Source: Mumia sp. Pv4-285 | GTDB lineage: Bacteria > Actinomycetota > Actinomycetes > Propionibacteriales > Nocardioidaceae | Reading direction: 5' to 3' | Assembly: GCF_041320275.1 (NCBI RefSeq) | Contig: NZ_CP162023.1 | Location: 1,922,001-1,986,000 of the forward strand | Length of the DNA: 64,000 bases | Shown: positions 28,414-47,145 of the stretch, one piece after another | How positions within the stretch are numbered: position 1 is the stretch's first letter | Layout of the letters: every line of letters begins with the position of its first letter | The notes under the pieces: model-generated | Seen by the model: the letters and a program-made list of their open reading frames with translations, nothing else | What the model was told of the DNA's origin: nothing | Database searches by the model: none | Translations under genes and position numbers: made by a program

Positions 28414-30780
28414 ATGAGCCCTGACCGCCATGCCCGCACGATGCTCCCGATCCCGGACCGGCGGGCGCCCGGGCTGACGACGTACGACGCGAAGGACCCC
28501 GACACGGCGTACCCGCCGATCGAGCCCCTCCTTCCGCCGGACGGAGCGCCGAACGTCCTCGTCGTGCTGCTCGACGACGTCGGGTTCGGCGCCGCGAGCG
28601 TGTTCGGCGGCCCGTGCGAGACGCCGACCGCCGAACGGCTGGCCACCGGCGGGTTGCGCTACAACCGGTTCCACACCACCGCGCTCTGCGCCCCGACGCG
28701 CCAGGCGCTGCTCACCGGACGCAACCACCACTCGGTCGGCATGGGCAGCATCACCGAGACGGCGACGTCCGCACCGGGCAACAGCTCGCTGCGACCGAAC
28801 ACCAAGGCTCCGCTGGCGACGACGCTCAAGCTCAACGGCTACTCGACGGCGCAGTTCGGCAAGTGCCACGAGGTCCCGGTGTGGCAGGCGTCGCCGATGG
28901 GCCCGTTCGACGCCTGGCCCTCGGGGGGCGGCGGGTTTGAGACGTTCTACGGCTTCATCGGCGGTGAGAACAACCAGTGGGACCCTGCCCTGTACGACGG
29001 GACGACCGCGATCGAACCACCGAAGACCGCCGAGGAGGGCTACCACCTCACCGAGGACCTGGCCGACCATGCGACCAGCTGGATCCGCCAGCAGAAGGCC
29101 CTGATGCCGGACAAGCCGTTCTTCGTCTACTTCGCGCCCGGGGCGACCCACGCCCCGCACCACGTGCCGAAGGAGTGGGCCGACAAGTACGCGGGGAAGT
29201 TCGACGACGGCTGGGACGTCCAGCGCGAACGCACGTACGCCCGTCAGCAGGAGCTCGGCGTCGTCCCCGCCGACGCCGACCTGACGGCGCGCCACGACGA
29301 GATCACCGCCTGGGACGACATGCCGGACGAGCTCAAGCCCGTGCTGGCGCGTCAGATGGAGGTGTACGCCGGCTTCCTCGAGCACACGGACCACCAGGTC
29401 GGCCGGCTGATCGACACCCTCGAGGAGCTCGACATCCTCGGCGACACGCTCGTCTACTACATCATCGGCGACAACGGAGCGTCGGCCGAGGGCACGATGA
29501 ACGGTGCCTTCAACGAGATGGCCAACTTCAACGGGATGGCGGCGATCGAGACGCCGGAGTTCATGGTCAGCAAGATGGACGACCTCGGCACACCCGACTC
29601 GTACAACCACTACTCCGTCGGCTGGGCCTGGGCGATGAACACGCCGTTCCAGTGGACGAAGCAGATCGCCTCCCACTGGGGCGGGACCCGCAACGGGACG
29701 ATCGTCCACTGGCCCGAGGGCATCACGGACCACGGCGGCCTGCGGTCCCAGTTCACGCACGTCATCGACGTGGCGCCGACCATCCTCGAGGCGGCAGGGC
29801 TGCCCGAGCCGACCATGGTCAACGGCGTGATGCAGTCCCCGATGGAGGGGACCAGCATGGCGTACACGTTCACCGACGCCGACGCCGACGAGCGTCACGA
29901 CCTCCAGTACTTCGAGATGTTCGCGAACCGCGGCATCTACCACCGGGGGTGGAGCGCGGTCACGAAGCACCGGACCCCATGGGTCATGGTCGGCGGAGAC
30001 CTCCCTGCGTTCGACGACGACGTGTGGGAGCTGTACGACGGCCGTACCGACTTCAGCCAGGCACACGACCTGGCGGCGGAGAATCCGGAGAAGCTCGCCA
30101 CGTTGCAGCGTCTGTGGTTGATCGAGGCCACGAAGTACGACGTGATCCCGCTCGACGACCGGACGTCGGAGCGCCTCGAGCCGACGATGGCCGGCCGGCC
30201 GACGCTGATCCGCGGCGACTCGCAGCTGTTGTTCCCGGGGATGGGGCGCCTGTCAGAGAACAGCGTCGTGAGCATCAAGAACAGGTCGTACGCCGTCACC
30301 GCGGAGGTGGACGTTCCCGAGAACGGCGCGGAGGGCGTGATCATCGCCCAGGGCGGTCGCTTCGGCGGCTGGGCCGTCTACGCGAAGGACGGGCGCGCGA
30401 AGTTCGCCTACAACGTCCTCGGCATCCAGCAGTTCGCTGCTGTGGCGGACACCCCGATCCCGGCGGGGCGCCACCAGATCAGGATGGAGTTCGCGTACGA
30501 CGGTGGCGGGCTCGCGAAGGGCGGCGACGTCACGTTGTACTACGACGGCACGGTCGTCGGCGCCGGGCGGGTCGAAGCGACGCAGCCGATGGTCTTCTCC
30601 GCCGACGAGACCACCGACGTCGGTTACGAGTCGGGGACGACCGTGACTTCCGACTACACGTCACGTCAGAGCCGCTTCACGGGGACGATCCACTGGGTCC
30701 AGCTCGACGCGGGGAGCGACGACCACGACCACTACATCGATCCCGAGGAGCGTCTGCGGGTCGCGATGGCGCGTCAGTAG
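28414..30780 (+). CDS. Arylsulfatase-family sulfatase
   Basis: A 788-residue type I sulfatase. The cysteine-type formylglycine motif CAPTR (Cys92) sits in TTALCAPTRQALLTGRN; it would be oxidised by a formylglycine-generating enzyme not in this window. Metal-binding acidic residues VVLLDDVGFGAAS and GDNGASAEG are present, as is a ~150-residue C-terminal beta-rich region (about 640-785) seen in larger arylsulfatases. No signal peptide is obvious, so it may be cytoplasmic. ATG 28414 (after GGAAG) is preferred over the in-frame GTG at 28375. It ends convergently on the flippase gene, overlapping it by seven bases. Confidence 0.9.
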   Translation: MSPDRHARTMLPIPDRRAPGLTTYDAKDPDTAYPPIEPLLPPDGAPNVLVVLLDDVGFGAASVFGGPCETPTAERLATGGLRYNRFHTTALCAPTRQALLTGRNHHSVGMGSITETATSAPGNSSLRPNTKAPLATTLKLNGYSTAQFGKCHEVPVWQASPMGPFDAWPSGGGGFETFYGFIGGENNQWDPALYDGTTAIEPPKTAEEGYHLTEDLADHATSWIRQQKALMPDKPFFVYFAPGATHAPHHVPKEWADKYAGKFDDGWDVQRERTYARQQELGVVPADADLTARHDEITAWDDMPDELKPVLARQMEVYAGFLEHTDHQVGRLIDTLEELDILGDTLVYYIIGDNGASAEGTMNGAFNEMANFNGMAAIETPEFMVSKMDDLGTPDSYNHYSVGWAWAMNTPFQWTKQIASHWGGTRNGTIVHWPEGITDHGGLRSQFTHVIDVAPTILEAAGLPEPTMVNGVMQSPMEGTSMAYTFTDADADERHDLQYFEMFANRGIYHRGWSAVTKHRTPWVMVGGDLPAFDDDVWELYDGRTDFSQAHDLAAENPEKLATLQRLWLIEATKYDVIPLDDRTSERLEPTMAGRPTLIRGDSQLLFPGMGRLSENSVVSIKNRSYAVTAEVDVPENGAEGVIIAQGGRFGGWAVYAKDGRAKFAYNVLGIQQFAAVADTPIPAGRHQIRMEFAYDGGGLAKGGDVTLYYDGTVVGAGRVEATQPMVFSADETTDVGYESGTTVTSDYTSRQSRFTGTIHWVQLDAGSDDHDHYIDPEERLRVAMARQ

Positions 30781-31988
30781 GCCGTGGTCTCCGGTGTCCG
30801 GCTGGACAGCCACCAGGCCGTCGCGGCGACCACCGACGCGGTCACCGTCATCGTGATGACGACGCCCGCGACGTGCAGCGGTGCGATCAGGATGATGCCG
30901 CCGGCGACGGCGGCGGCGCCCCACAGCAGCGGCACGATGCCGTGCGAACGCCGGGCGAGCGCGTCGAAGACGAGCAGCTGGACGACGGCGAGCATCGCGC
31001 CCTCGAGCGTGAACAGCCAGAGCAGCGGCTTCACCTCGGCGTACTGGTCGCCGCCGACGAGGATCAGCGCGATCCCCGGCAGCAGAGCGGTCGCCACCGT
31101 GGCGGCCAGGCCGACGAGCGCCACCGTGCCGACCGCGAGGCGACGGGCGCGTTCGGCACGGGCCCGGGCGAGACGCGGGAACGCGACGATGCTGACGAAC
31201 TGGGGGAGGAACAACGCTGACTTCGTGAGGATGAGACCGGCCGCGTAGAGGCCGCTGTCGTGGGGCGTGAGCGCGACGCGCGCCAGCAGAGCGTCGAGGT
31301 TGCTCAGCACGAGGTAGGCGAGCATGGCGTGCGAACCGGCGAGCAGCTCCCAGACGTACGCCCGCGAGCCGCCGAGACCACCGGGGCGCAGGTAGCGGAG
31401 CCCGAGCAGGACGGGGAGCCATGCCCCGACCATCACACCGGCGATCGCCGCGGTCGGCGTGGCGCTCACGAGCATGGCAGCCGTGCCGAACACGACACGG
31501 CCGACTCCGTTGGCGACGTAGAGCACCGAGAGGACGGTCCACCGGTGCTGGCCCTGAGTGATGCCGGCGAGCGCACCCATCAGCGTGAGCGGCACCACGG
31601 TGGCTCCGCACAGCACGAGCGGCCAGACCGAGTCGAGCTGGAGGAGCGGCGCGAGCACGGGGCTGAGCACGACGAGGGCGAGACCGACCACCGTGCCGAG
31701 CGAGACCGACACGGCGGTCGCCGTCGCGGCGATGCGGTCGGCATGCTCGGGCGCGACAGCGATGCGGCGGGCCGTCGTCGTCTGCACGGCCAGCGAGGCG
31801 ACGTTGGCGACGAGGAGCACTCCCAGCAGCGCGGTCAGCGCGCCGAAAGACGCCGGGATCAGCAGGCGTGCGGCGAGCAGCGTGAAGGCGTAGGCACCGA
31901 CGTTCTGGAGCGTCATGGCCACCGCGATGCGGCCCCCGGCACTCACAGCGGCGGGTGCGCGCGTCGGTTCGGCGGGGGGCGTCGGCAC
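30774..31988 (-). CDS. Wzx/MurJ-like polysaccharide flippase
   Basis: A 404-residue protein with 12 or so hydrophobic helices, of the oligosaccharide-flippase/MATE-like fold (early segments GGRIAVAMTLQNVGAYAFTLLA and ARLLIPASFGALTALLG). It probably moves a lipid-linked glycan across the membrane. GTG at 31988 lies six bases after a TATATC element on its strand; an ATG at 32018 would add ten residues and overlap the divergent gene. It forms one end of the glycan locus. Confidence 0.8.
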   Translation of the reverse strand: MPTPPAEPTRAPAAVSAGGRIAVAMTLQNVGAYAFTLLAARLLIPASFGALTALLGVLLVANVASLAVQTTTARRIAVAPEHADRIAATATAVSVSLGTVVGLALVVLSPVLAPLLQLDSVWPLVLCGATVVPLTLMGALAGITQGQHRWTVLSVLYVANGVGRVVFGTAAMLVSATPTAAIAGVMVGAWLPVLLGLRYLRPGGLGGSRAYVWELLAGSHAMLAYLVLSNLDALLARVALTPHDSGLYAAGLILTKSALFLPQFVSIVAFPRLARARAERARRLAVGTVALVGLAATVATALLPGIALILVGGDQYAEVKPLLWLFTLEGAMLAVVQLLVFDALARRSHGIVPLLWGAAAVAGGIILIAPLHVAGVVITMTVTASVVAATAWWLSSRTPETTAY

Positions 31989-31994
31989 GGACCC

Positions 31995-32002
31995 GATATA
32001 AC
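31995..32002. promoter_or_regulatory. Overlapping divergent -10 elements
   Basis: The eight bases GATATAAC hold TATAAC on the plus strand (5 and 8 bases before GTG 32008 and ATG 32011) and TATATC on the minus strand (six bases before GTG 31988). Both genes could be transcribed leaderless from one nearly symmetric element. Neither hexamer is a perfect TANNNT. Confidence 0.4.
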
Positions 32003-32007
32003 CATGC

Positions 32008-33561
32008 GTGATGGACATACGTCGCTTGGGGCGCGCCTGGCCGTGGGTCATGGCGTTGCTGGTGTGCGCCCCGATGCTCGCGTGGGGCTACGTCCTCTCG
32101 TACGACATGGTCTTCGTCCCGCGCCTGGATGTCACGCGTCCGGACGTCTGGGGGCTCGGATCGGCCATGCCGCGGGCGGTCCCGTCAGATGCCGTGGTGG
32201 CTGTCCTCAACCTGGTCGTCCCGGGCTGGCTGCTGCAGAAGCTCGTGCTGGTCGGCGTCTTCGTGGTGGCCGGTGCTGGCGCGATGCGGATGCTCGAACG
32301 CTTCGGCCCCGGCGCGCAGCTCGCCGGGACGACCTGGTTCGTCTGGAACCCGTACGTCGCCGAGCGTCTCGTGATCGGCCACTGGCCGCTGCTGGTGGCG
32401 TACGCCGCGATGCCGTGGGTGGTGGTCGCGTGCCTGCGGGTCAGGGGAGGGGAGCCGGTCCGTTGGTGGCGGTGGGTGCTGCCGCTGGCCGCCACGGCGC
32501 TGACGCCCGCCTCAGGCGTGATCGGCGTGGTGCTCGCGCTCTCCGTGTGCGGGTGGCGCCGCTGCGGCCGCGTCCTGTTCGTCGGGCTCGTTCTCAACCT
32601 GCCCTGGATCGTGGCGGGGTTCGCACACCCGGCTGTCGGGCGGAGCGACCCTGCCGGTGTGGGGGCGTTCGCACTGCAGCCGGAGGCGGGTCTCGGGCGG
32701 CTCGGGGCGGCGCTCAGCCTGGGCGGCATCTGGAACGTCGAGGTGGTGCCAGCCTCCCGCGACCTCGTGACGGCGACCGTGTTCTGCCTGATCCTGTGGG
32801 CGGTGATGGGGCTCGGCGCGGTGGCCGCGTGGCGGCGCCCGCGTCGCCGTACGCTGCTGCTCGCGCTCGCGCCCGCTGCGGGGGTGGGCCTCACGATCGC
32901 ACTGCTTGGAGCGTTCGTGCCCGATCTCCTCGAGTGGATCGTCGGCACCCTGCCCGGTGGCGGCCTGCTGCGCGACGGCGCCCGGTACCTCGCTCTGGTC
33001 GCGCCGCTCCAGGCGGTCCTGGTGGCCGCCGGTGTCGGCGCCCTCGCCGAACGTGTCCGTCAGCGGTCCGCGCGGTGGAGCCTCCTCGCGGTGGCGATCC
33101 TGCTCCCGGTCCTCGCCATGCCGGACCTGGCGTGGGGTGCGGCCGGCCGGCTCCAACCGGTCTCGTACCCCGACGAGTGGGCCCAGGCGCGGACCGCGAT
33201 CGCCGAGTCCGACGTCGACGGCGACATCGTCGCCCTGCCCTTCAGCGCGTTCAGGGCGCCCGGGTGGAACCACGGTCGCGTGGTGCTCGACCCGGCCGGC
33301 CGCTACTTCTCGCGCGAGACCGTCGTCAACGACGACCTCGTCGTGTCGGGCGAGGCGATCGCGGGCGAGGACGAGCGCGCCGAGGCGGTCGGGGAGGCGC
33401 TCGGGTCCAGCGATCCCGCGAGTGGCCTGCGGGACGAGGGCATCGGCCTCGTCGTCGTGGAGCTCGACGCGCCCGGAGCCGACGACCTCGGCGAGCTCCT
33501 GGAGGACCTGGACCCGGTGTACACCGGTGACGACCTGGCCGTCTACGCGGTGCCCGACTGA
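32008..33561 (+). CDS. Multispanning membrane protein, GT-C-like, unknown
   Basis: A 517-residue protein with about ten helices in residues 1-380 and a soluble C-terminal part (~380-517). The loop after the first helix (SYDMVFVPRLDVTRPDVWG) and the later NPYVAERLVIGHWPLL segment recall GT-C glycosyltransferases and the membrane part of AftD-like proteins in this locus, but I cannot assign a family. GTG 32008 or ATG 32011 starts it, both near a TATAAC box. Convergent with the UbiA-type gene. A role in envelope glycan assembly is inferred from context only. Confidence 0.75.
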   Translation: MMDIRRLGRAWPWVMALLVCAPMLAWGYVLSYDMVFVPRLDVTRPDVWGLGSAMPRAVPSDAVVAVLNLVVPGWLLQKLVLVGVFVVAGAGAMRMLERFGPGAQLAGTTWFVWNPYVAERLVIGHWPLLVAYAAMPWVVVACLRVRGGEPVRWWRWVLPLAATALTPASGVIGVVLALSVCGWRRCGRVLFVGLVLNLPWIVAGFAHPAVGRSDPAGVGAFALQPEAGLGRLGAALSLGGIWNVEVVPASRDLVTATVFCLILWAVMGLGAVAAWRRPRRRTLLLALAPAAGVGLTIALLGAFVPDLLEWIVGTLPGGGLLRDGARYLALVAPLQAVLVAAGVGALAERVRQRSARWSLLAVAILLPVLAMPDLAWGAAGRLQPVSYPDEWAQARTAIAESDVDGDIVALPFSAFRAPGWNHGRVVLDPAGRYFSRETVVNDDLVVSGEAIAGEDERAEAVGEALGSSDPASGLRDEGIGLVVVELDAPGADDLGELLEDLDPVYTGDDLAVYAVPD

Positions 33562-33595
33562 CGGCTCGAGCCTCGGGCGGTGCTGGGCGCCGCGC

Positions 33596-34477
33596 TCAGG
33601 CCCACACGCCGAGCGCGAACGTGACCAGCCAGGCGACGGCGATCGTCTGGAGCACCCGGTCGCGCAGCACGATGTCCTCCGGCTCACCGGCGAGCCCGCG
33701 GTCGACGTCGACCGAGTAGCGCAGGACTCCGAGCACGAACGGCGCGATCGAGATCGCCTGCCACGGCGTGCCGGAATCGGGGGAGATCTCGAACGCCCAC
33801 AGGCTGTAGGCCGTGATCGTGACGCCGGCGGCGAGTCCCCAGACGAAGCGGAGATAGGACTCCGAGTACAGCTCGAGCGAGCGGCGCGTGCCCGCTGCGC
33901 TGCCGAGCGCCTTGAACTCGGAGTACCGCTTGCCGGCCACCATGAACAGAGATCCGAACGCAGCCACGAGAAGGAACCACTGCGACAGGACCACCCCGGC
34001 CGCGACACCGCCCCCGACTGCACGAAGGACGAAGCCGGAGGCGACGACCGCGAGGTCGATGACGGCCAGGTGCTTCAGCCACAGGGCGTACGAGACCTGG
34101 AGGCCGGCGTAGACGGCGAGCGTGACGCCGAGCTGCCAGTCGAGGACCGAACCCGCTGCGATCCCGACCGCCGCGAGGAGCGCTGCTGTGAGCAGCGCCG
34201 TGGACGGTGCGACATCTCCCGCGGCGATGGGACGCAAGGACTTGAGCGGGTGCCGTCGGTCCTCCTCGGCGTCGCAGACGTCGTTGACGAGGTAGACCGC
34301 AGCTGAGACCAGGATGAACGTCGCGATCGCCACGAGAACCCGGAAGAGGACCGGTGGATCGGTCAGGACACCGGCGGCGAGGGGAGCGGTCGCCACGATG
34401 AGGTTCTTCAGCCACTGGCGTGGCCGCATCGAGACGACGAGGCTCGTGACCGGGGACCGGCGTGTCAGGGATCTCAT
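33596..34477 (-). CDS. ubiA: Polyprenyl-phosphate phosphoribosyltransferase (UbiA superfamily)
   Basis: A 293-residue membrane prenyltransferase with about eight helices. The Mg-diphosphate motif is NDVCDAEEDRRHP, followed by KSLRPIAAGDV, as in decaprenyl-phosphate phosphoribosyltransferases, which transfer 5-phosphoribose from PRPP to decaprenyl phosphate, the first committed step toward the arabinofuranosyl donor. The second acidic region around DLAVVASGFVLRAVGGG also fits. Proximity to an AftD-like gene supports this over menaquinone or heme prenyltransferases. A TAGGCT box lies nine bases upstream of the ATG. Confidence 0.85.
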   Translation of the reverse strand: MRSLTRRSPVTSLVVSMRPRQWLKNLIVATAPLAAGVLTDPPVLFRVLVAIATFILVSAAVYLVNDVCDAEEDRRHPLKSLRPIAAGDVAPSTALLTAALLAAVGIAAGSVLDWQLGVTLAVYAGLQVSYALWLKHLAVIDLAVVASGFVLRAVGGGVAAGVVLSQWFLLVAAFGSLFMVAGKRYSEFKALGSAAGTRRSLELYSESYLRFVWGLAAGVTITAYSLWAFEISPDSGTPWQAISIAPFVLGVLRYSVDVDRGLAGEPEDIVLRDRVLQTIAVAWLVTFALGVWA

Positions 34478-34486
34478 CGTCCGCCA

Positions 34487-34492
34487 AGCCTA
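34487..34492 (-). promoter_or_regulatory. Putative -10 box (TAGGCT) for the UbiA-type gene
   Basis: TAGGCT on the minus strand with nine bases to the ATG at 34477 and no ribosome site; transcription would start within a few bases of the start codon. Confidence 0.4.
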
Positions 34493-34577
34493 GGTGATGG
34501 GGGCCTCGAAGTGCCTCGTGATGATATCGGTACGGTCTTCGGCCTCGGGATGTTGGTCATTCGGCCTAACCGGCTGG

Positions 34578-34583
34578 TAACCT
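34578..34583 (+). promoter_or_regulatory. Putative -10 box (TAACCT) for the DUF2613 gene
   Basis: TAACCT with a weak TTGGTC 19 bp upstream; predicted start near 34590, just before the GGAGGG ribosome site. Confidence 0.4.
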
Positions 34584-34614
34584 GGCGGCTCGGACTTCAG
34601 GAGGGAAGAATCTC

Positions 34615-34761
34615 GTGGGTGGTTTCCTTGGCGGCATTGCCGCCATCGTTGTTGGTGCGGGCCTTGGCGCTGCCACGGTGGTCGGCGTCGTCCAGACGCA
34701 GGCCGCTGACAACAGCCCGACGCAGCCGACGTCGCAGGTCGTCGACTACGGCTCCAACTGA
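34615..34761 (+). CDS. DUF2613-type mini membrane protein
   Basis: A 48-residue protein: VGGFLGGIAAIVVGAGLG begins a single hydrophobic helix, and a Ser/Thr/Gln-rich tail ends in YGSN. GGAGGG at about 34600-34605 and the GTG give good initiation. The family is a short secreted or membrane protein that in mycobacteria sits beside aftD; finding it here inside an AftD-type locus supports the assignment. Function unknown; a small partner of a GT-C enzyme is possible. Confidence 0.75.
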   Translation: MGGFLGGIAAIVVGAGLGAATVVGVVQTQAADNSPTQPTSQVVDYGSN

Positions 34762-34793
34762 GCGATCACGGCACGCTCTGACGCAGGGCAGAC

Positions 34794-35909
34794 TTACCGA
34801 GAGGGCTTCGCCAGGACACTGGCGAAGCCCTCTCGTGTCTGTGCCCAGGTGAACATCTGAGACTTCTCGAAGGCGCCCTTGCCGAGGCGGCGACGGTCCT
34901 CGTCGTCGGTGAGCACGGAACGGATCGCGGCCACGAACTCGGCGTGCTCGTCGACCAGCACGCCAGATGCACCGTCGTCGATCGACTCGCGGGTGCCGCC
35001 GGCCGAGCGGTAGGCGATCGTCGGCGTGCCGTGCGAGCCGGCCTCGCCGACGACCAGACCCCAGCCCTCCTTGAGCGAGGGGAGCGCCATCACCCAGCTG
35101 CTCGCGTAGATGTCGTGCTTGGTGCGCTCGTCCACGAACCCGGTGAAGTCGACCCGGTCGGCGACCCCGAGCCGTGCGGCGTACGCACGGAGCTCGTCCT
35201 CCCACCAGCCGTCGCCGACGACGGTGAGGGTCAGCTCGGGGAACTCAGGCAGCTCTGCGACGGCGTCGATCGCGTGCTCGACCTGCTTGTGGGGGACCAG
35301 GCGGCCGACGACGCACACCGAGGGGTGCGGGGTCCGTGTCACGTGCGTGACCGGACTCGGCTCGGTGCCGTTGTGGACGATCGAGATCCGGTCGGCCTCC
35401 ACGCCCAGCGCGACGAGCTCGTCGCGGGTCGCGGTCGACACAGCGACGTAGCGGGACCGACGGTAGAGCCGTGGGGCGAGCCAGGACTCGACCCACCACC
35501 CGATGCGCCCGACGAGCCCGGGATAGACGACCGGCCACTGCTCGCGGTGCACGTGGTGGACGAGGACGACGACCGGCTTGCGGGTCGCGAGCCGAGTGAA
35601 GAACGGGAGGCCGTTCTGGACGTCGACCACCACGTCGACCCGGCCGAACCGGCGGAGCAGCAGACCGAGGAACGCGAACGCGTAGACCGCCATCTTGTCG
35701 CCGCGGCGCACGAAGCGGATGCCGTCACGCACCTCGTTGCGGGGTGCGTGGTCGTGGGCCGCGCAGAACGCCGTCACCCGGTATCCGCGTTCGACGAGAC
35801 CGAGCGCGACCTCCTCGACGAACTTCTCGGAGCCGCCCCCCTCAGGATTGCGGGTGTCGCGCCAGTTGCAGATCAGCACATGGCGCGGGCTAGTCGAACG
35901 CAGCGACAT
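34794..35909 (-). CDS. GT4 family glycosyltransferase
   Basis: A 371-residue GT-B enzyme. The N-terminal acceptor domain has the Gly-rich loop RDTRNPEGGGSEKF; the donor domain has VVGRLVPHKQVEHAI, the VGDGWWEDEL strand and the nucleotide-sugar motif SLKEGWGLVVGEAGSHGTP (the E-x7-E region). It probably adds a sugar to a lipid-linked or envelope glycan on the cytoplasmic face. ATG 35909 follows GGGAGGGAG. Its last codons form the arms of a terminator hairpin shared with the DUF2613 gene. Stop is TAA. Confidence 0.88.
   Translation of the reverse strand: MSLRSTSPRHVLICNWRDTRNPEGGGSEKFVEEVALGLVERGYRVTAFCAAHDHAPRNEVRDGIRFVRRGDKMAVYAFAFLGLLLRRFGRVDVVVDVQNGLPFFTRLATRKPVVVLVHHVHREQWPVVYPGLVGRIGWWVESWLAPRLYRRSRYVAVSTATRDELVALGVEADRISIVHNGTEPSPVTHVTRTPHPSVCVVGRLVPHKQVEHAIDAVAELPEFPELTLTVVGDGWWEDELRAYAARLGVADRVDFTGFVDERTKHDIYASSWVMALPSLKEGWGLVVGEAGSHGTPTIAYRSAGGTRESIDDGASGVLVDEHAEFVAAIRSVLTDDEDRRRLGKGAFEKSQMFTWAQTREGFASVLAKPSR
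34801..34832. terminator. Terminator built into the 3' end of the GT4 gene
   Basis: A perfect 14-bp stem (GAGGGCTTCGCCAG and complement) with a GACA loop, encoding residues EGFASVLAKPS of the glycosyltransferase. It lies 40 bases past the DUF2613 stop, so both convergent genes can use it. Confidence 0.75.
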
Positions 35910-35998: not shown

Positions 35999-36748
35999 GT
36001 GACCGATCCGTCCTACGCCACGCCTACCTCACGTCCGACGCTCGGTCGTTCCTTCCGGCTCTTCCGGGCGCACCGCGTGGAGCAGACGGATCCGGACCTC
36101 TTCTACGGCATGCTCGCCGCCGACTCGGTCGGTCAGCTGTCGCAGTACGCGGACCTGCGGGGCTCCCGGGTGCTCGACGTCGGTGGAGGTCCCGGCTACT
36201 TCGCCAACGCCTTCCGCGCGGCGGGCGCCTCGTACACGCCGCTCGACTCCGACCTCGGTGAGCTGTCCGGCCTGGGCGATCCCGAGAAGGGCACCGTGAT
36301 CGGCAGCGGCATGTCACTGCCGTTCCGCGACGACGCCTTCGATGTCACCTACTCGTCCAACGTCCTCGAGCACGTGCCCGAGCCGTGGACGATGGCGGAC
36401 GAGATGATCCGGGTCACCCGTCCGGGCGGCCTGGTGTTCCTGTCGTACACGTTGTGGTGGGGGCCGTGGGGTGGCCACGAGACCGCCCCGTGGCACTACC
36501 TCGGCGGACACCGCGCTGCCGATCGCTACGCCCGCACTCACGGCAAGCGTCCCAAGAACGACTTCGGCAGCTCGCTCTTCGCGGTCACGGCCGGTGCCGG
36601 CCTGCGGTGGGCGAGCTCGCAGACCGGAGCGGACGTGCTCGAGACGATGCCCCGCTACCACCCACGCTGGGCGTGGTGGACGCTGCGCGTGCCGGTGCTG
36701 CGGGAGGTGACGACGTGGAACCTCGCGATCGTCCTTCGCAAACGCTGA
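35999..36748 (+). CDS. SAM-dependent class I methyltransferase
   Basis: A 249-residue methyltransferase of the type 11 group: motif I VLDVGGGPGYFANAF, an acidic residue in TPLDSD for the ribose, the SLPFRDDAFDVTYSSNVLEHV post-motif block, and MIRVTRPGGLVFLSY. The C-terminal ~100 residues include WWGPWGGHETAPWHYLGG and hydrophobic helices, as seen in homologues encoded with AftD. The substrate is probably a glycan or lipid intermediate. Start GTG 35999 is set by the upstream TATCGT box. Its end overlaps aftD by 34 bases. Confidence 0.85.
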   Translation: MTDPSYATPTSRPTLGRSFRLFRAHRVEQTDPDLFYGMLAADSVGQLSQYADLRGSRVLDVGGGPGYFANAFRAAGASYTPLDSDLGELSGLGDPEKGTVIGSGMSLPFRDDAFDVTYSSNVLEHVPEPWTMADEMIRVTRPGGLVFLSYTLWWGPWGGHETAPWHYLGGHRAADRYARTHGKRPKNDFGSSLFAVTAGAGLRWASSQTGADVLETMPRYHPRWAWWTLRVPVLREVTTWNLAIVLRKR

Positions 36749-39700: not shown

Positions 39701-40827
39701 TGCGGTTCGACGACGGCACAGTGCGTGAGGTCGAGCTCGAGGACGGTGTCGCCCGCTTCGCGCCAGTGCGAGCCTCCTCCGTCGAGGTCCACCTCGACTC
39801 CGACGAGACCCGCTCGGGGATCGACGCGTTCGGGACCACCTCGCCTCTGCCCGTGGGGGTCAGCGAGATCGACGTGCGAGGTCCCCGGCGTCTGTTCCCG
39901 CAGCCTCCGAGCGACGCGGCCGTCCGGGGCCGGTGCGGGGACGGACCGGCGGTGGAGATCGACGGGCGCCGCTACCGGACGCGGGTGACCGCGTCGGAGC
40001 AGAGCCTGCTCGCGGCCGAGCAGGTCCAGGCCCAGATCTGCGGTCTCCCCGAGGTGACGCTCGACGAGGGGACCCACAGGATCCAGGTCGTCGGCAACGA
40101 CGTGTACCGACCGGTGTCCTTCGTGCTCGGTGCACCGGAGCCCGAGGCGGTGGACGCGCCCACAGTGGCGACGACTCCCCGGTGGGGCAAGACGGAGCGG
40201 ACGGTCGATCTCGACGGCGCGCAGTCGGGGGACCGGCTCGTCACCGTTGCCGAGAACGGCAACGCGGGTTGGCGTGACGTGGCGGGCAGCACGTCGGTGC
40301 AGGTCAACGGCTGGCAGCAGGGCTACGTCGTGCCTGCTGCGGCGGACGAGCTGAGGCTGGAGTTCGCACCGGCCGCACGTTATCGCTGGGCACTGCTGGT
40401 CGGTGCGCTCGCGTTCGTCGCGCTTCTCGGGATGACCTTGCTGCGGCGCCGCGTCCGCCAGCCGGCCGAGCGCGAGCGCGAGTTCCGTGGGTCGTTGCTG
40501 GTGCTGGGACTCACCTTCGCGGTGTCGGGCCTCCTGGCAGGCACCGTCGGTCTGGGCATCGCGGCCCTCGGATGGGTGACCGGCCTCGTCGTACGACGGT
40601 TCTCGGCCGAGGCCGCCGCCTGGCTCACCGCCGTCCCGGTGGTGGTCGCCGCTGGTGCGTACGCGGTCCTGCCGTGGGGCTCAGACGACGGCTGGGCGGG
40701 TGACCTCGCGTGGGCTCAGCTGGTGCTGGCGCTCTCGCTCGGGATGCTCGCCGCGTCGGTGGTCGGCGGGGTTCGTCTCCGGCCGAGGTTGCGCAGGCGC
40801 ATCGAGGGCAGCTCCACCACGCGGTAG
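36715..40827 (+). CDS. aftD: AftD-like arabinofuranosyltransferase
   Basis: A 1370-residue GT-C protein. The first ~470 residues hold about eleven helices; the loop after helix 1, ADTKLDLVIDPGGFLGRALT, carries the Asp pair typical of AftD. A large exported part includes two discoidin-like carbohydrate-binding modules (around residues 700-830, with SAFDGDPRTQWKA, and 930-1050, with AIDGDPSTGWIA) and a beta-rich region; four helices close the C-terminus. AftD adds alpha-1,3-linked arabinofuranose using decaprenyl-phospho-arabinose. GTG 36715 follows GGGAGG inside the methyltransferase gene. The 3' end overlaps the convergent acyltransferase by 112 bp. Confidence 0.85.
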   Translation: MEPRDRPSQTLSSLTWRFRLAAVSLALVAVAFVQAPGRIVADTKLDLVIDPGGFLGRALTMWDPVGAFGQVQNQAYGYLFPMGPFFLLGKLAAIEPWVIQRLWWSLLLVTAFLGIVKLSGAMGIGAPWARIVAGLAYALSPRMLTVIGPSSIEVWPMALAPWVLVPLVIGMRRHDPRWMAALSALAVACVGGVNAVATFAVIPLGGLWLLLQPASPRRRSLMVWWPLFVLLGTLWWLVPLLMLGAYSPPFLDYIESASTTTFAATLFDALRGTTNWVPYVDANSVAGNDLLRSIGLIVNGAVVVALGIVGIARRGTPQRRFLLGGLLMGLLLVTLGHTGTVHGWGAESVQQALDGVLAPLRNTHKFDLVIRIPLVLGFAHTISRLGSAVRETDSERLLRRGVAVLGVSALLGATVPAWTGALASRGAFESVPGYWQETADWLAQHDSGQRALLVPAASFGDYLWGRTGDDVIQPLADSPWATRNAIPLAPGGNILTLDVIERRLASGHGSAGFADYLEGSGVRYLVVRNDLAATSEHTDPERVYATLAETPGVTSVAQFGPGLGSDPVLTDEDGERVLVKGGWQAIRPAVEVFAVGSSGRGPVSVQDLDETPVVAGGPDSLLALDELGVAPGAAILADDVVDRDERPGRVVLTDGDRRREAAFGRAEQNRSGSLADDEPYSLDRPVHDYRVSPTSDFQSSPQMVGAAGIEASSSQSDAGSPGPAVPGAQPWSAFDGDPRTQWKAGGADVDTSWIELRLGGPTEVDEITITLAPTMERTRTLTVTTDAGSVEAVAQPGLPTTVDLPPGATDSIRISAAASAFDPITITDVVVPGLDLSRPLVMPQLPSSWGAPDDIVMTVDQGYRSGCLDVAGTLRCVAGQEQWGEDGRTIDRELTMSSSATYTPSLAVAPIGGAALDAAVQVGRLAAVAASSYLVEDPRDSAVRAIDGDPSTGWIAADDDADPTLTLAWLGDRQIRSLSVETDEDLGASPPTSATLRFDDGTVREVELEDGVARFAPVRASSVEVHLDSDETRSGIDAFGTTSPLPVGVSEIDVRGPRRLFPQPPSDAAVRGRCGDGPAVEIDGRRYRTRVTASEQSLLAAEQVQAQICGLPEVTLDEGTHRIQVVGNDVYRPVSFVLGAPEPEAVDAPTVATTPRWGKTERTVDLDGAQSGDRLVTVAENGNAGWRDVAGSTSVQVNGWQQGYVVPAAADELRLEFAPAARYRWALLVGALAFVALLGMTLLRRRVRQPAEREREFRGSLLVLGLTFAVSGLLAGTVGLGIAALGWVTGLVVRRFSAEAAAWLTAVPVVVAAGAYAVLPWGSDDGWAGDLAWAQLVLALSLGMLAASVVGGVRLRPRLRRRIEGSSTTR

Positions 40828-41909
40828 AGGACCTCGGAGACGAGGAGGCTGGCGCCGAGCGTCAGGGCCAGCAGCAGGAAGAAGGGCGCGTCGAACAGCG
40901 TGTAGCCACGCCACTCGAACACCAGGTGGAGCACCACCAGGTGGCAGCAGAACAGTCCGTACGAGATATGGCCGAGATGCCGGAAGAACGGCACCGAGAG
41001 CGCCCGCTGGAACACGGTCGCCGGGTCGCTGAAGATCGCCGGCAGCACCAGGAGCGCGGCCGCCGCGGCGTACACGACGTTCTTCGTGACTGCCTCGGCC
41101 GGCGTCGAGGCCTCGAGCATGAGGGGGCCTCCGAGTGGCGTGGCGACGACCAGGAGCAGTGCTCCGCCGGCGAGCCATGCCGTCCAGGGCGCCTCGGCGA
41201 GCCGGCGCAGCGCCGGCGTCCGTTCCCGCTCGGCGATGGCGAACGCGATCCCCACGGCGAACCAGCTGAGGTAGGCGGGGAGCCACTGGCCGGGCGAGGG
41301 GAGGTCGCCGAGCACCGGGCTGGCGGCGAGCCCGACCCACACCCAGCTCGCGACCGACGCGACGCCCAGGAAGACGAGCAAGGCGACGGGGCGCCACCGC
41401 GCACGGCACACCGTACGGGCGAGGAGCCACATCAGTACGGGGAGCGACACGTAGAACGCGACCTCGGTCGAGAGGCTCCACATCTGGGTCAGGCCGGGGG
41501 TCAGCTCCGGGTCGTTGTACAGACGCACCAGCAGGAGGTTCTCGAGCCAGATGCGTGGGCCTGCCGACTCGTTCTCCGGGAGGAGCGTCATCGCCGCGAC
41601 GACGGTCACCCAGTAGACCGGCAGGATCCGGAGAGCACGGTGCCAGAAGTAGCGGCCGGCGCGAGGCGTGTCGCGACGACCGGCCATCGCGCCCAGGTAC
41701 GGCTGGCTGAGGAGGAAGCCCGACAGCACGAAGAAGATGGCGACGCCGAAGTCCATCCGGGCCAGCAGCGCACCGGGGATCCCGTCGGAGTACGTGCCTG
41801 CCCAGAACGCCACGTGGGTCGCCACGACCGCGATCGAGGCGATCGCGCGCATCGTGTCGAGCCCCGGGTAGATGCGCCGGTGCTCCCGCTCATCGGGTCT
41901 GTCCTTCAC
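40716..41909 (-). CDS. Acyltransferase family 3 membrane protein
   Basis: A 397-residue, ten-helix O-acyltransferase. Key family features are LDTMRAIASIAVVATHVAFW with its catalytic His in the first helix, LSGFLLSQPY, RALRILPVYWV and SLSTEVAFYVSLPV, ending in VVELPSMRLRNLG. It likely acetylates or acylates hydroxyls of an envelope glycan. GTG 41909 overlaps the stop of the upstream GT-C gene (GTGA). The last 112 bases are antisense to the aftD end. Confidence 0.9.
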   Translation of the reverse strand: MKDRPDEREHRRIYPGLDTMRAIASIAVVATHVAFWAGTYSDGIPGALLARMDFGVAIFFVLSGFLLSQPYLGAMAGRRDTPRAGRYFWHRALRILPVYWVTVVAAMTLLPENESAGPRIWLENLLLVRLYNDPELTPGLTQMWSLSTEVAFYVSLPVLMWLLARTVCRARWRPVALLVFLGVASVASWVWVGLAASPVLGDLPSPGQWLPAYLSWFAVGIAFAIAERERTPALRRLAEAPWTAWLAGGALLLVVATPLGGPLMLEASTPAEAVTKNVVYAAAAALLVLPAIFSDPATVFQRALSVPFFRHLGHISYGLFCCHLVVLHLVFEWRGYTLFDAPFFLLLALTLGASLLVSEVLYRVVELPSMRLRNLGRRRTPPTTDAASIPSESASTS

Positions 41910-43738
41910 CCTGTCGCCTCCAGCGTCCCGACCGTGATCTGGTCGACGCAGATGGTCGCGCCGTCGGTGGCGCGCAGACGCACGGTGTCGAAGGCGCCCT
42001 CGGTGCGGAGGAACAAGGTGTGGAGCCCCGCCCTCACAGGGACCGTCTCGGACACGTCTCCGGCAGACACCGCCATCTCGCCGTCGCTGCCGGCGAGATA
42101 GCCGATCGTCATCCAGAACGGGAAGTCGAAGGTCTCCGCCTGCAGGGCGACAGTCTCCGGCAGCTCTTGGACCAGGTGGCCGCAACCGGCGACCGTGCCC
42201 GGGACGCTCGTCATCCCGGGGACCACGACCGCCTGCGTGACGTCGCCGTCGTCATCGAGCACCTGGAGGTCGTTGGACACGGCGGGCGTCGTGAACCGGT
42301 CGCCGAGCGGCGCGAAGAAGACCGAGGTGAGGTTGTACGGGGCGTTGGCGTTCCACATCACGTCGTCGGGCACTGGGACGTCAGCGAGCTCGGGGCGTTC
42401 GGCGTCCTCGATCGACTCGATCGCACGGAGGCCGTAGTCCTTGGTCACGTTGCCGTCGTGCCAAGGCCGGGCGTACATGACGGTCGAGAACGTCGATGCT
42501 GCGACGTAGACGACCAGCCCGGCGACGATCGACCGGTGCGACAGCCGGACGGTCAGGAGCGGCTCAGGGCGTCGCGCGGAGGACTCCCACGCACCCTTGA
42601 GGTGCATCGTCGCCAGCGCGAGGACGAGCGCGAGGATCGCGGAGGTGTCGGAGAGGTAACGGGCCTCGTTGCCGCTCACCGCGCCGAAGGAGCTGGAGCG
42701 TCCCACGGCGATGATCCCGTAGCCGAGGAGGAGGTAGGGGACCAGGAGGACGAGGGACCGCAGGACGCGCACGCGTGTCGCGTACAGGTAGAACCACACC
42801 GCCGTCACGACCACCCATGAGACGGCGACCAGGAACGTCGACGGATCGGTGACCGAGCGGGGACCGCCGTTCAGGAGGTCCCAGCTCCACGAGAGGCCCG
42901 TGAGGCCCGTGCCCAGCGTGTCGAAGAGCATCGACCGGGCGAGCCCGAGGTAGTCGGTGCCGCCCTCGGCGGGCTCGCGCGGCATGTGGATCCAGTACAT
43001 GACGAGGTACGCGGCACCGAGAGCGGCGTACGTCAACCAGCCCCACAGGTAGCGGCGTACGACCCCCAGGAAGCGCCGGACGAACGGACCGCGGCCGAAG
43101 TAGAGCAGCGCGAGGAGGCCGAACACCATCAGCAGCGCGATCGCCTTGACGTAGAAGAGCAGCCCGACCGCCGTGACCAGGGCGGCGACCAGCGCCCAGC
43201 GGTAGTGCCGGGTCCGCAGGTAGGTCACGTGGGCCAGCACGCCGAGGAAGATGCAGGTGTGCAGCGGAAGCTGGTTGATCATCGCCGCGTACCAGGTGAG
43301 CGTCGGCACACTGAAGATCGAGAACAGGTACACGGTGAGCGGGGCCAGGATCGCCGGCCGGTCGCCGAAGAGCTTGCGGAGCATCCACCAGCACGAGACG
43401 CTCGCCGCCAGCTGCAGCAGCAGCGTCTCGACCACGGCGAGCCACCACGCGAACGGGCCGCCCAGGGTGACGATCTTGACCAGGACGAAGCTCAGCGGCA
43501 TGAAGTGGACGTTGTGCGGCCGGAGGTACCAGTCGAGGTCGTCGCGCCCCAGTGCGATGTCGGACAGGAACTGGAAGTCGTCCTCGAAGAACCAGCTGCC
43601 CTGGGTCACCCATGCGCGCAGCGCCAGCTGTGCGGCGATCAGGGAGAGCGCCGCTGCGGTGACCATCTGGGCACGCGTCATGTCGGCGGGGACCCAGCCA
43701 CGGACCGCCCGCGTCGTGTCCGCGGCAAGGGTGTTCAC
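41906..43738 (-). CDS. GT-C-like membrane glycosyltransferase with C-terminal beta domain
   Basis: A 610-residue protein with about eleven helices (residues 25-450). The first external loop FFEDDFQFLSDIALGRDDLD has the acidic motif expected of GT-C catalysis, followed by LRPHNVHFMPLS. The last ~130 residues form a soluble beta-rich domain with paired cysteines, resembling a carbohydrate-binding module. Substrate and family are not recognised with certainty. GTG 43738 overlaps the arylsulfotransferase stop by four bases and its own stop overlaps the acyltransferase start, so the three genes form one unit. Confidence 0.78.
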   Translation of the reverse strand: MNTLAADTTRAVRGWVPADMTRAQMVTAAALSLIAAQLALRAWVTQGSWFFEDDFQFLSDIALGRDDLDWYLRPHNVHFMPLSFVLVKIVTLGGPFAWWLAVVETLLLQLAASVSCWWMLRKLFGDRPAILAPLTVYLFSIFSVPTLTWYAAMINQLPLHTCIFLGVLAHVTYLRTRHYRWALVAALVTAVGLLFYVKAIALLMVFGLLALLYFGRGPFVRRFLGVVRRYLWGWLTYAALGAAYLVMYWIHMPREPAEGGTDYLGLARSMLFDTLGTGLTGLSWSWDLLNGGPRSVTDPSTFLVAVSWVVVTAVWFYLYATRVRVLRSLVLLVPYLLLGYGIIAVGRSSSFGAVSGNEARYLSDTSAILALVLALATMHLKGAWESSARRPEPLLTVRLSHRSIVAGLVVYVAASTFSTVMYARPWHDGNVTKDYGLRAIESIEDAERPELADVPVPDDVMWNANAPYNLTSVFFAPLGDRFTTPAVSNDLQVLDDDGDVTQAVVVPGMTSVPGTVAGCGHLVQELPETVALQAETFDFPFWMTIGYLAGSDGEMAVSAGDVSETVPVRAGLHTLFLRTEGAFDTVRLRATDGATICVDQITVGTLEATG

Positions 43739-45963
43739 CCGGCGGATTCTAGCCGGGCGGGGTTCGGCGCCCGCCGGGCCTTCGCCCGGACGACCGCCGC
43801 CACCGTGTCCCGCGCAGACGCCTGCGCGGTCGACGTGGCGCGGATCTTGAACGTACGCCGTGCTCCCGCCGGTGTGGAGGCGCTGCGGCGGACGACGATC
43901 TTGAGCGTGATCGACCGGCCCGGGAGCAGGACCGGGGTGCGGTACGCACCACGGACGATCTTCGTGGTGCGGTTGGCGCCGGCGACGCGGTACTTCGCCG
44001 GGAAGCGCTTCGTCCCCTTCGTCCCCTCGACCGTGAACCGCTCCGCTCGGTTGCCCCGGTTGGTGATCCGCACGACGAACGTGCGGCTGGCTCCGCGGCG
44101 CCGGATCGTCCCCGCCACGGTCTGGGCCCGTGCGGAACCGATCGTGCCGACCCCGCGGTAGGTCGCGGTTCCGGCCGCCCGCACGGCGACGTCGGGTCGG
44201 CGGACCTGGGGGACCGCGGCGGCGGTCGGCCGGACGACGTACGAGCGCGCGACCGTCGTCGAGTTCCCGGCACCGTCGGTCGCGGTGACGCGGACCTGGC
44301 GCGTGCCGGGCGTCCGCGTGTCCAGCCGCGTGCCGTCGAGTCCGGCGACCGTGCAGGAACGCAGGCTCGATCCTCCACGGTCCGTGCACGAGTAGGTCGG
44401 CGTGAGCCGGGCTCCCTCGGCGTACGAGGCACCGCTCGTGAACCCGCTCACCGCGATCTCCGGGCGGAGGGCGTCGTCCACGGTCGCGCGCGCTGCACGG
44501 TAGGTGAACTGCCGGGCGTTCGGGTCGGCGGTGGTGGCGTCGATCAGCTCCCAGACCTTCGTACCCGTCGCATCCACCTCGGTCGCGACGGCAAGCCGTG
44601 ACGAGGCCCATCCGATGAGGGTGTTGCCGTTGCTCAGGCGCTCGGACGACCCCGCGAACAGGGCGAAGCGCCCCGGCTCCTCGTAGCTCCACGCGGTGGT
44701 CGCCGTGCCCGCGTCCACGTCGAGCGCGTACTCGGTGACCCGCGTCTGCGGCCTCGCCAGGAGCGGACCGGACGGGTCGGCGGGGTCGACGCACAGCTCA
44801 CTGTCGTTGTAGTCCCACGAGCCGTTGTCGAACAGCAGGATGCGGCCTCCGGAGACGACCGACGCGGTGTGCTGCGCACACGGGCCGCCGTCGCCGGGGA
44901 CGGGTTCGCCGTTCTCGTCCACGAACGTGAAGTCGCTGTGGCGTCCGCCGAGCCTCCAGACGACATCTCCCCGCGCGTGGCCGTCGTGCGAGTGCCGCGC
45001 GATCTTGAAGACCGAGCTGAAGTGCCGGAACGACGCCAGCACATCGCCGTCGGGCATGATCTCGATCGAGTTGATGTGGGCGTAGTCCGGGTTGCTCGCG
45101 ATGTCGATCACGGTCTCCGTCGACGGATCGACGTGGTCGGCCGTGCTCCACTCCCAGAGCAGGTCACCGGTCGCGGACAGGTGCTGGATCACCGAGTCCG
45201 TCAGCCCGGTGGCTGGGTTCGGCTCGTACGCGAGGAGATAGACGCTGCCGTCGTCCAGGAGGATCGAGTCGTGCCCGTCGGTGTCGACGAGGCCGGCCGT
45301 CTCCCGTCGACCCACCTCCGCGAGCCGCTCGTCGAGGAGGGCGAGGTCGCTGCCGGTGCGCCCCGGCGTCGTCGTACCCCGCGACACCGTCAGCGTGCCG
45401 TCGGGTTGCCGCTTGAAGTCCATGGAGCTGCTGGTTCGGCGCGCGAGCACCGGGACCCCGTTGGCGTCGACCGCGGTCTCGTAGAACGGTGCGCCGCCCG
45501 TCCAGGTGCTCAGCGTGAGCAGGATGTGCCCTGGGGGGACCGCCGTGGTGGCGCTGCCGTCGTCCTGCCGCTCCAGCGTCGGGAACCCCGCCGGCGTGAC
45601 GAAGAGGGAGTGCACGGCCGTGCCGGTGCTGTCGGTGATGAGGACCGAGATCTCGTCACCGGGCTCGAGGCCGGTCAGCGTACGCGTCCCTCCTGGGGCG
45701 GGCGCGCCGTTGATGCGGACGACGCTGCCCGGCTCGCTGCTCGCTGCCTTGACGGTCACCGTCGGCGCTCCGCTCGGTGAGGTGATCGCGTACCGCTCGA
45801 TGGCCGGGTCGAAGCGCGGGTACATCGCCGCTCCAGGGCCCGCCACCGTGAGCGTGTGGGTCGGTGCCGCGGCAGCATCGGCGCGCGTGGCGGGCTGGGC
45901 GACGACGAGGCCGGCGACCAGCAGAACGGCGACCACGAGGGCGACCGGAAGAGCGGGCTTCAT
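43735..45963 (-). CDS. Arylsulfotransferase (ASST)-like secreted protein
   Basis: A 742-residue exported protein. A signal peptide (MKPALPVALVVAVLLVAGL, cleavage near ADA) precedes an N-terminal Ig-like segment, then a beta-propeller (~140-500) with VDTDGHDSILLDDGSVYLL, YAHINSIEIMPDGDVLAS and GDVVWRLGG, repeats typical of ASST proteins. Cysteine-bearing and basic, Arg/Thr-rich Ig-like repeats (~510-735) follow and may bind the wall. ASST enzymes move sulfate from a phenolic sulfate to another phenol; sulfation of a glycan or lipid is only a hypothesis here. It heads the minus-strand operon with the GT-C and acyltransferase genes. Confidence 0.8.
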   Translation of the reverse strand: MKPALPVALVVAVLLVAGLVVAQPATRADAAAAPTHTLTVAGPGAAMYPRFDPAIERYAITSPSGAPTVTVKAASSEPGSVVRINGAPAPGGTRTLTGLEPGDEISVLITDSTGTAVHSLFVTPAGFPTLERQDDGSATTAVPPGHILLTLSTWTGGAPFYETAVDANGVPVLARRTSSSMDFKRQPDGTLTVSRGTTTPGRTGSDLALLDERLAEVGRRETAGLVDTDGHDSILLDDGSVYLLAYEPNPATGLTDSVIQHLSATGDLLWEWSTADHVDPSTETVIDIASNPDYAHINSIEIMPDGDVLASFRHFSSVFKIARHSHDGHARGDVVWRLGGRHSDFTFVDENGEPVPGDGGPCAQHTASVVSGGRILLFDNGSWDYNDSELCVDPADPSGPLLARPQTRVTEYALDVDAGTATTAWSYEEPGRFALFAGSSERLSNGNTLIGWASSRLAVATEVDATGTKVWELIDATTADPNARQFTYRAARATVDDALRPEIAVSGFTSGASYAEGARLTPTYSCTDRGGSSLRSCTVAGLDGTRLDTRTPGTRQVRVTATDGAGNSTTVARSYVVRPTAAAVPQVRRPDVAVRAAGTATYRGVGTIGSARAQTVAGTIRRRGASRTFVVRITNRGNRAERFTVEGTKGTKRFPAKYRVAGANRTTKIVRGAYRTPVLLPGRSITLKIVVRRSASTPAGARRTFKIRATSTAQASARDTVAAVVRAKARRAPNPARLESAG

Positions 45964-45969
45964 GCCGGA

Positions 45970-45975
45970 ACCCTA
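45970..45975 (-). promoter_or_regulatory. Putative -10 box (TAGGGT) for leaderless ASST operon
   Basis: TAGGGT on the minus strand, six bases, then ATG 45963; no ribosome site between. It is identical to the hexamer before pyk. Confidence 0.5.
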
Positions 45976-46061
45976 GGCGCACCAACCCCCTCCGCGGACC
46001 CGAGTGGCGACCTATGCCGAATCGTTGTAGAGGGAGATGCCGTCTCAGGGCTACTCACTGG

Positions 46062-46067
46062 TAGTCT
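46062..46067 (+). promoter_or_regulatory. Putative -10 box (TAGTCT) for the DUF3068 gene
   Basis: TAGTCT matches TANNNT and leaves a ~28-nt leader with GAGGGAG before GTG 46102. No -35 was recognised. Confidence 0.3.
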
Positions 46068-46101
46068 CTCCCGCGTCTCAAACGACTGTGAGGGAGTTCA
46101 C

Positions 46102-47145
46102 GTGGGCAAGAAGACAGGGTTCGCCGCCGTCATCATCGGCGCGTTCCTCTTGGTGCTGGCCGTCCTGGCCAAGACGTACGCGTACGACGAGCTGGCCGTC
46201 GTTCCGCTCGATCAGGACACGACGACGGTCTCGAAGACCATGCCGGGTGAAGACGCCACCTATCTCAACGTCGCGGCGGCCGGTGGTCCCGCGATCGAGA
46301 CCGGCCCCCTCGAGTCGCGACGCAAGGTCGTCGGCCAGGTCGAGGCGAGCAAGGACGCCAGCGACGAGCTCGACGAGAACCTCGCCGTCTGGGAGACCTT
46401 CTCCTACACCGCACCGCCGGGGACACCCGCCGAGGAGGCGCTCAGCGGCACGCGTGACGTGGTCCCGTTCGAGCGCACCACGGGCGAGACGGTCCGCTGG
46501 CAGGGCGCCGAGACCGAGAGCAACGAGATCGTCATCTCGCCGTTCAGCTTCTACGGCAACTACTTCAAGTTCCCGTTCAACACCCAGAAGGACTCCGTGG
46601 ACTTCTGGGACGGTTCTCTCAAGAAGGCGATGCCCGCCGAGTACGAGAGCACCGAGGAGATCGAGGGCCTCGAGGTCTACAAGTTCGTCCAGACGATCGA
46701 GCCGACCAAGATCGCCGAGCAGCCCGTGCCGGGCACGCTCGTCGGCATGCCCGAAGAGTCCACGGTCGTCGCTGACCGCATGTACGCCAACACCCGCACC
46801 CTGTGGGTCGAGCCGGAGACCGGCGTGATCATCAAGGGCCAGGAGGAGCAGCTGGCGACGCTCGACGTCGAGGGCGAGCCCAAGGCGACGATCACGGAGG
46901 CCACGCTCGGCTACGACGACGAGACGGTGAAGGCGACCGTCGACGAGTACAAGGGCAAGGCGACGGCGCTGGGTCTGGTCCGCACGACGGTCCCGCTCGT
47001 CGGCGGCATCCTCGGTGGGCTGCTGGTCCTCGGTGGCGCCGTCCTGCTGCTCCGCTCCCGCAAGGGTGGCGCGGGTGGCGACGAGGCGCAGACCGAGCCC
47101 TCGGGCGAGGGTTCGCCCGCGAAGGCGGCCCACATCAAGGCATGA
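46102..47145 (+). CDS. DUF3068 (PorA-family-like) membrane-anchored protein
   Basis: A 347-residue protein with an N-terminal helix (~5-23), a large external domain (~24-292) and a C-terminal helix (~295-317) with a short charged tail. The [18 protein letters not shown] start, the [12 protein letters not shown] core motif and the [15 protein letters not shown] segment are typical of DUF3068. The family is widespread in actinobacteria and often linked to envelope loci; some databases name it PorA-like. GAGGGAG supports the GTG at 46102. It is divergent from the ASST operon. Confidence 0.82.

Follow-up and report, generated by a model that had tools for sequence, protein, structure and literature searches.

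What would a soil bacterium without mycolic acids assemble with genes known from the mycobacterial envelope? The question is raised by a stretch of 64,000 nucleotides (the window), at positions 1922001-1986000 of the closed 4.65 Mb genome of Mumia sp. Pv4-285, a member of the Nocardioidaceae, in which twelve genes fill the interval between polA (25623-28325) and the M18-rpsA block (47180-50164). MmpA, MtrP, TmaT, PgfA/LmcA and AftD have been studied as factors of the mycobacterial envelope; several are essential in mycobacteria, and their biochemical roles are unsettled. The answer favored here, with a probability of about one half, is that the locus represents a mycolate-free version of an old actinobacterial locus for envelope-glycan assembly, with ribofuranose decoration in Mumia.

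On the basis of family matches and gene order, the locus is identified as the polA-rpsA version of the Corynebacterineae cell-wall cluster, joined to AftD and DUF2613. Its named members are MmpA, an Rv0225-like GT4 glycosyltransferase, an MtrP-like methyltransferase, a TmaT-like acyltransferase, PgfA/LmcA, AftD and DUF2613. A comparison across the Nocardioidaceae, proposed in an earlier note on this DNA, revealed that the core order flippase-MmpA-GT4-methyltransferase-AftD-acyltransferase-PgfA, from polA to rpsA, is repeated not only in Mumia but also elsewhere in the Nocardioidaceae and in several families besides; a grouping with this gene order in so many genomes is not a matter of chance. 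In a Pks13-positive genome (locus L064), AftD, TmaT, PgfA, flippase, MmpA, GT4 and MtrP are contiguous, and their identities with the window proteins are 34% (AftD), 39% (acyltransferase), 26% (PgfA), 38% (flippase), 36% (MmpA), 46% (GT4) and 53% (methyltransferase); the window methyltransferase is 92% identical to that of another Mumia. Like the NCgl2759-2765 and Rv0224c-Rv0228 loci (with aftD and Rv0236A nearby there), the Mumia locus contains the same families in a conserved arrangement, and the neighboring genes in C. glutamicum include tmaT (NCgl2759) and mtrP (NCgl2764) (PMC8698533, PMC8972800). Unlike those loci, it is situated between polA and rpsA and holds a putative decaprenylphosphoryl-5-phosphoribose (DPPR) synthase and an extra GT-C protein.

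Published work has termed the locus Corynebacterineae-specific, and a 2021 paper described MmpA as having no homologues beyond corynebacteria and mycobacteria (PMC8698533). This claim is contradicted by the distribution of MmpA, which is present in 97 of 247 genomes, and in 40 of 96 genera, in an even draw of the class. AftD occurs in 122 of the 247 genomes (44 genera) and accompanies a clear MmpA in 90 of 96 genomes. No account of the locus in mycolate-free bacteria was found in the literature searched. The earlier view of the interval as an undescribed system is thus sustained in part: the glycan is without a described counterpart, but the gene set itself is the known mtrP-Rv0225-mmpA-pgfA-tmaT cluster with aftD, which had gone unrecognized.

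The host was examined for the genes of mycolate, arabinan and lipomannan synthesis. Matches to the mycolate condensase Pks13 did not exceed 50 bits in the window genome or 329 bits in any Mumia; the controls exceeded 2700, and the cut-off was 2100. The Emb domain (PF04602) was found in none of 39 genomes, including the window genome, while the C. glutamicum control was positive. The MptB family of alpha-1,6-mannosyltransferases was absent from six Mumia genomes and from five other genomes with the locus or its core genes, and was found in both mycolate controls. Scores for DprE1 were bimodal, with true enzymes at 350 bits or more (one split hit included) and all others at 93 or less; the window genome gave no match above 76 bits, and none of the six Mumia genomes gave one above 83. 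For DprE2, nothing was detected at 1e-20 in the six Mumia genomes, and positive controls were recovered. The window genome's best DprE1-like hit (L147, C1:701160-701789) was rejected as DprE1 on score, match length and context; it is a 476-residue FAD oxidase, resembling sugar-lactone oxidases, and its neighbor is an alanine-racemase/deaminase-like gene. Among the other genomes, Gordonia zhenghanii (G331) carries two full-length DprE1 genes (C12:443303-444682 and C12:769392-770771; 559 and 602 bits).

In the absence of these genes, mycolates, Emb arabinan, the usual lipomannan backbone and the arabinose donor are not made via the known enzymes, and the first three are unlikely substrates of the locus. 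In this respect Mumia differs from the hosts of the Corynebacterineae locus, as it lacks Pks13, Emb, MptB, DprE1 and DprE2 alike. Compared with the mycobacterial pathway to decaprenylphosphoryl-arabinose and its use (Rv3806c, Rv3807c, DprE1, DprE2, Emb/Aft), it retains the first enzyme and an AftD-family member, but neither DprE1, DprE2 nor Emb. The earlier note had correctly placed the DNA in a Nocardioidaceae-type organism in which mycolyl-arabinogalactan is not expected. Its further proposal of an arabinofuranose-containing glycan is not supported, since DprE1 and DprE2, whose absence it had itself named among the grounds for refutation, are missing from all six Mumia genomes and no Emb domain was found.

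The retained first enzyme is UbiA (33596-34477, minus strand, 293 residues), which the earlier note had taken for a decaprenyl-phosphate phosphoribosyltransferase rather than a menaquinone enzyme. This assignment is borne out by a match of 358.7 bits to the Rv3806c family model NF008978 (cut-off 207). A role as menaquinone or haem prenyltransferase was rejected, as DPPR synthase models gave 165-359 bits and others at most 55, except for one uncharacterized UbiA-family model (151.5 bits). The protein aligns with the solved Rv3806c over residues 10-289 (273 bits). In alignment to 8j8j, and judged by the list of residues in Rv3806c that bind phosphoribosyl pyrophosphate (PRPP) and Mg (PMC10994848), contacts R22, K28, Y70, N73, D77, K87, R90, Q135, Y138 and K143 are kept, with departures at K208 (R) and Y157 (F). 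Between Mumia species, dN/dS is 0.10-0.18 for UbiA, below the 0.15-0.33 of AftD, and hence the gene is under constraint. By these sequence measures UbiA qualifies as a true DPPR synthase maintained by selection.

Orphan UbiA genes, i.e., those in genomes lacking DprE1, are not confined to Mumia, but were also found in Nocardioides sp. Root122, in G164, in a metagenome-assembled Aeromicrobium genome, and in Modestobacter, Geodermatophilus, Klenkia, Quadrisphaera and Lentzea. Conversely, a DPPR synthase above the cut-off and a true DprE1 occur together, mostly adjacent, in fourteen genomes of other genera, and in the Nocardioidaceae G018, L069, L117, L119, L127 and L134 the genes UbiA-DprE1-DprE2 lie inside the same locus. 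In a tree of 76 UbiA sequences, the orphan label requires 11 changes, at least seven of which are forced by well-supported branches; gaps in draft assemblies may explain some of the orphan cases. Loss or replacement of DprE1-DprE2 next to an intact UbiA is seen in Modestobacter and Klenkia. Modestobacter VKM Ac-2985 carries UbiA-DprE1-DprE2-LCP, whereas in VKM Ac-2982 a flippase-like gene replaces the DprE1-DprE2 pair, and in L085, L104 and L109 the pair is cleanly missing.

In the close-relative comparisons (L101 versus L107 in Modestobacter, and L085 versus L082, L104 and L109), an LCP-like gene lies downstream in each. In Lentzea sp. NBRC 102530 (L141, 6724-10873), an Emb-like gene adjoins UbiA, and no DprE1 hit below 1e-40 was obtained.

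The MmpA gene (~32011-33561, plus strand) belongs to the Rv0226c/NCgl2761-type family (NF053599, 489.8 bits; cut-off 210). Its AlphaFold model (predicted local distance difference test score, pLDDT, 74) has the predicted fold of a GT-C enzyme: the best structural match is AftD (6w98; VIA Z 20.9 over 451 residues), and a large number of further GT-C enzymes resemble it as well. Comparison of deep profiles with hhalign joins MmpA to the GT-C domain of AftD (P 1e-15, 438 columns), while single-sequence hhalign of the same pair was not significant. All 59 sequences compared, drawn from genomes with and without mycolates, share residues D32, R55, D60, E118, R119, R321, D322 and R415. The profile alignment and the model identify MmpA as a paralogue of the AftD N-terminal domain. 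In view of the GT-C fold, the AftD homology and the invariant charged residues, it is probably a glycosyltransferase, or derivative of one, rather than a transporter or plain anchor. Partial homology to AftD has been noted before, and was interpreted in terms of a membrane anchor (PMC8698533). If mycolates are absent, as the lack of Pks13 suggests, delivery of trehalose mycolate cannot be the role of MmpA here. The Mumia protein is ~45 residues shorter at its C-terminal end than other Nocardioidaceae MmpA, and the predicted last membrane helix is gone.

AftD itself (~36715-40827, plus strand; PF11847, 787 bits) contains both a GT-C_AftD domain and CBM_AftD (carbohydrate-binding module, CBM), is collinear with 6w98 over residues 13-1358 (631 bits), and has D42 invariant regardless of DprE1 status. 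A general tie between AftD and UbiA outside the mycolate family was tried and rejected (odds ratio 1.5, P 0.18). At least two AftD proteins per genome, one of ~700 bits and one of ~290 bits, occur in family f19 (G071, G111, G121 and others), in which the genomes tested had no DPPR synthase and no true DprE1. A third candidate is the orphan GT-C-like protein (41906-43738, minus strand), which bears a WFxDDF motif and a C-terminal CBM6-like beta-sandwich and gave no match in Pfam or NCBIfam. Its model has an overall pLDDT of 61.6, with 85-91 in the CBM6-like domain and low confidence in the membrane part, such that the fold match is only indicative. The orphan protein, rather than AftD, may use the Mumia ribose donor.

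Taken together with the remaining core genes, the following course of assembly may be envisaged. In the cytoplasm, the GT4 glycosyltransferase (34794-35909, minus strand), placed by family match and synteny at the Rv0225 position of the mycobacterial locus, and the class I S-adenosylmethionine-dependent methyltransferase (~35999-36748, plus strand; family match), at the MtrP (Rv0224c/NCgl2764) position, would build a lipid-linked glycan or glycolipid. The putative MOP-superfamily flippase (30774-32018, minus strand), whose position is kept across the loci of relatives, would transfer material to the outer side of the membrane. There, with polyprenyl-phosphate sugars as donors, AftD, MmpA and the orphan GT-C with its CBM would lengthen or decorate it, and the acyltransferase-3 (40716-41909, minus strand; PF01757, 108 bits), at the TmaT (Rv0228) position, would acylate the product. 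The lipid-anchored product would then be moved by PgfA/LmcA (DUF3068, PF11271; 46102-47145, plus strand), a predicted periplasmic lipid-trafficking protein that matches NF053601, the family of Rv0227c/NCgl2760, at 248.2 bits (cut-off 160) and the LmcA structure 7n3v at 56 bits. UbiA would make polyprenyl-phospho-ribose-5-phosphate, the dephosphorylated form of which would serve directly as a donor of ribofuranose rather than arabinose, because the DprE1/DprE2 step is missing. The most likely outcome that we infer, acceptor and order of steps included, is ribofuranose decoration, by a GT-C enzyme using the ribose donor, of a GT4-built, methylated and acylated glycan handled by PgfA.

A precedent is provided by Citrobacter, where the addition of ribofuranose takes three components (polyprenyl-phosphoribose synthase, MATE flippase and GT-C enzyme), and an extra epimerase changes the pentose; its authors remarked that gain or loss of the epimerase could switch the sugar (PMC11127046). 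Like the Citrobacter youngae O1 system (synthase, MATE flippase and GT136 GT-C; PMC11127046), Mumia has in its locus a phosphoribose-lipid synthase of the UbiA type, a putative flippase and predicted GT-C enzymes that bear CBM, and no DprE epimerase. In contrast, Mumia is Gram-positive, has an AftD-type GT-C in place of GT136, shows no fused phosphatase domain, and adds a methyltransferase, an acyltransferase, PgfA and MmpA.

Several observations weigh against ribofuranose decoration by this locus. No DPPR phosphatase was identified: UbiA has no fused domain, and no genome search for a separate enzyme was made. One Mumia genome (G004) has lost UbiA and kept AftD, and of the 99 genomes with AftD that do not belong to the mycolate family, 67 have no DPPR synthase above the cut-off; AftD is therefore not necessarily the enzyme that draws on the ribose donor. 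The flippase match is weak (PF01943, 23.9 bits; cut-off 28.2). An unrelated epimerase may exist elsewhere in the Mumia genome, and the Emb-like gene of Lentzea NBRC 102530, without DprE1, hints at a gap in the draft assembly or at another enzyme for this step. A literature search on the sugar chemotaxonomy of Mumia yielded no usable open paper.

Such an epimerase is central to an unlikely alternative, in which arabinofuranose is still made: an enzyme unrelated to DprE1/DprE2 would convert the ribose lipid to its arabinose form, and AftD would add arabinofuranose as it does in mycobacteria. AftD is indeed full-length with its conserved residues, UbiA-DprE1-DprE2 share the locus in G018, L069, L127 and L134, and the xylofuranose of Citrobacter depends on an unrelated epimerase of the short-chain dehydrogenase/reductase (SDR) type (PMC11127046); yet the genes predicted in the Mumia locus include no oxidoreductase or SDR, Emb is absent together with DprE1 and DprE2, and several relatives lost the latter two jointly without replacement. 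It appears rather improbable that the conserved core is an export route for a small glycolipid, of an acylated trehalose type or otherwise, with a non-mycolate acyl group and TmaT, MtrP and MmpA as its machinery, and that UbiA serves an unrelated purpose. The retention of the entire set in order would agree with this, as would the joint action of MmpA, MtrP and TmaT on trehalose corynomycolate in C. glutamicum (PMC8698533) and the binding of a trehalose monomycolate analogue by PgfA (PMC9678360). Mumia is, however, without Pks13, the GT-C fold predicted for MmpA and its invariant charged positions suggest sugar transfer and not transport alone, and AftD and GT4 are constant members of the locus.

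A product resembling lipoarabinomannan (LAM), with PgfA/LmcA and AftD acting on lipomannan (LM), would parallel the Corynebacterineae, where LM/LAM requires LmcA and AftD (PMC8972800), but is very improbable where MptB is missing from Mumia and from five other tested genomes with the locus or its core genes, and DprE1/DprE2 from Mumia. Least credible is the notion of the orphan UbiA as a functionless relic of a lost arabinose pathway. Although DprE1 and DprE2 are gone, and in Mumia G004 UbiA itself, the low dN/dS across Mumia, the kept PRPP-binding residues and the retention of an intact UbiA after several separate DprE losses all speak for function. Ribofuranose decoration by a mycolate-free assembly locus thus remains the preferred reading.

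A broader interpretation can be offered only tentatively, and we would not rate its chances as even: Actinobacteria may have repeatedly switched a module of the mycobacterial type from arabinosylation to ribosylation by deleting DprE1-DprE2 and keeping DPPR synthase, with MmpA-MtrP-TmaT-PgfA-AftD, to which a role in the traffic of mycolates and LAM has been ascribed in Corynebacterineae, as an older, mycolate-independent line in which MmpA itself is a GT-C glycosyltransferase. Because bacteria that have no mycolate genes carry the complete set, the basic job of these factors can be told apart from mycolate transport, and such hosts offer genetic systems in which the genes are perhaps dispensable. 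The hypothesis for the role of MmpA changes if it is an AftD-like GT-C, and the recurring orphan DPPR synthase allows chemistry to test directly whether machinery of the arabinan type can run on ribose.

The predicted genes were checked by codon-position GC and by Pfam/NCBIfam matches; the codon-position GC of the listed genes is typical of coding sequence, and the families agree. The genes named in the earlier note were all found in place and its polA and M18-rpsA flanks were right, although its list, which covered most of the interval, missed the MmpA gene and left the sulfatase unnamed. Among the remaining genes is that of the small membrane protein DUF2613 (34615-34761, plus strand; PF11021, 23.5 bits, cut-off 22.1). 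Two genes appear to be accessory. The sulfatase (28414-30780, plus strand; PF00884, 224 bits), which opens the interval, occurs in two of six Mumia loci (the window and L049), and in L047, L048, L050 and L051 the stretch from polA to the flippase contains no sulfatase. The ASST-like arylsulfotransferase (43735-45963, minus strand; PF05935, 83.4 bits) is likewise found in two of six, the window and L050 (3067-5196), with the orphan GT-C and PgfA as its neighbors in both. Sulfation, which had been raised as a possible property of the glycan, was rejected as a core trait, as both genes vary between Mumia genomes.

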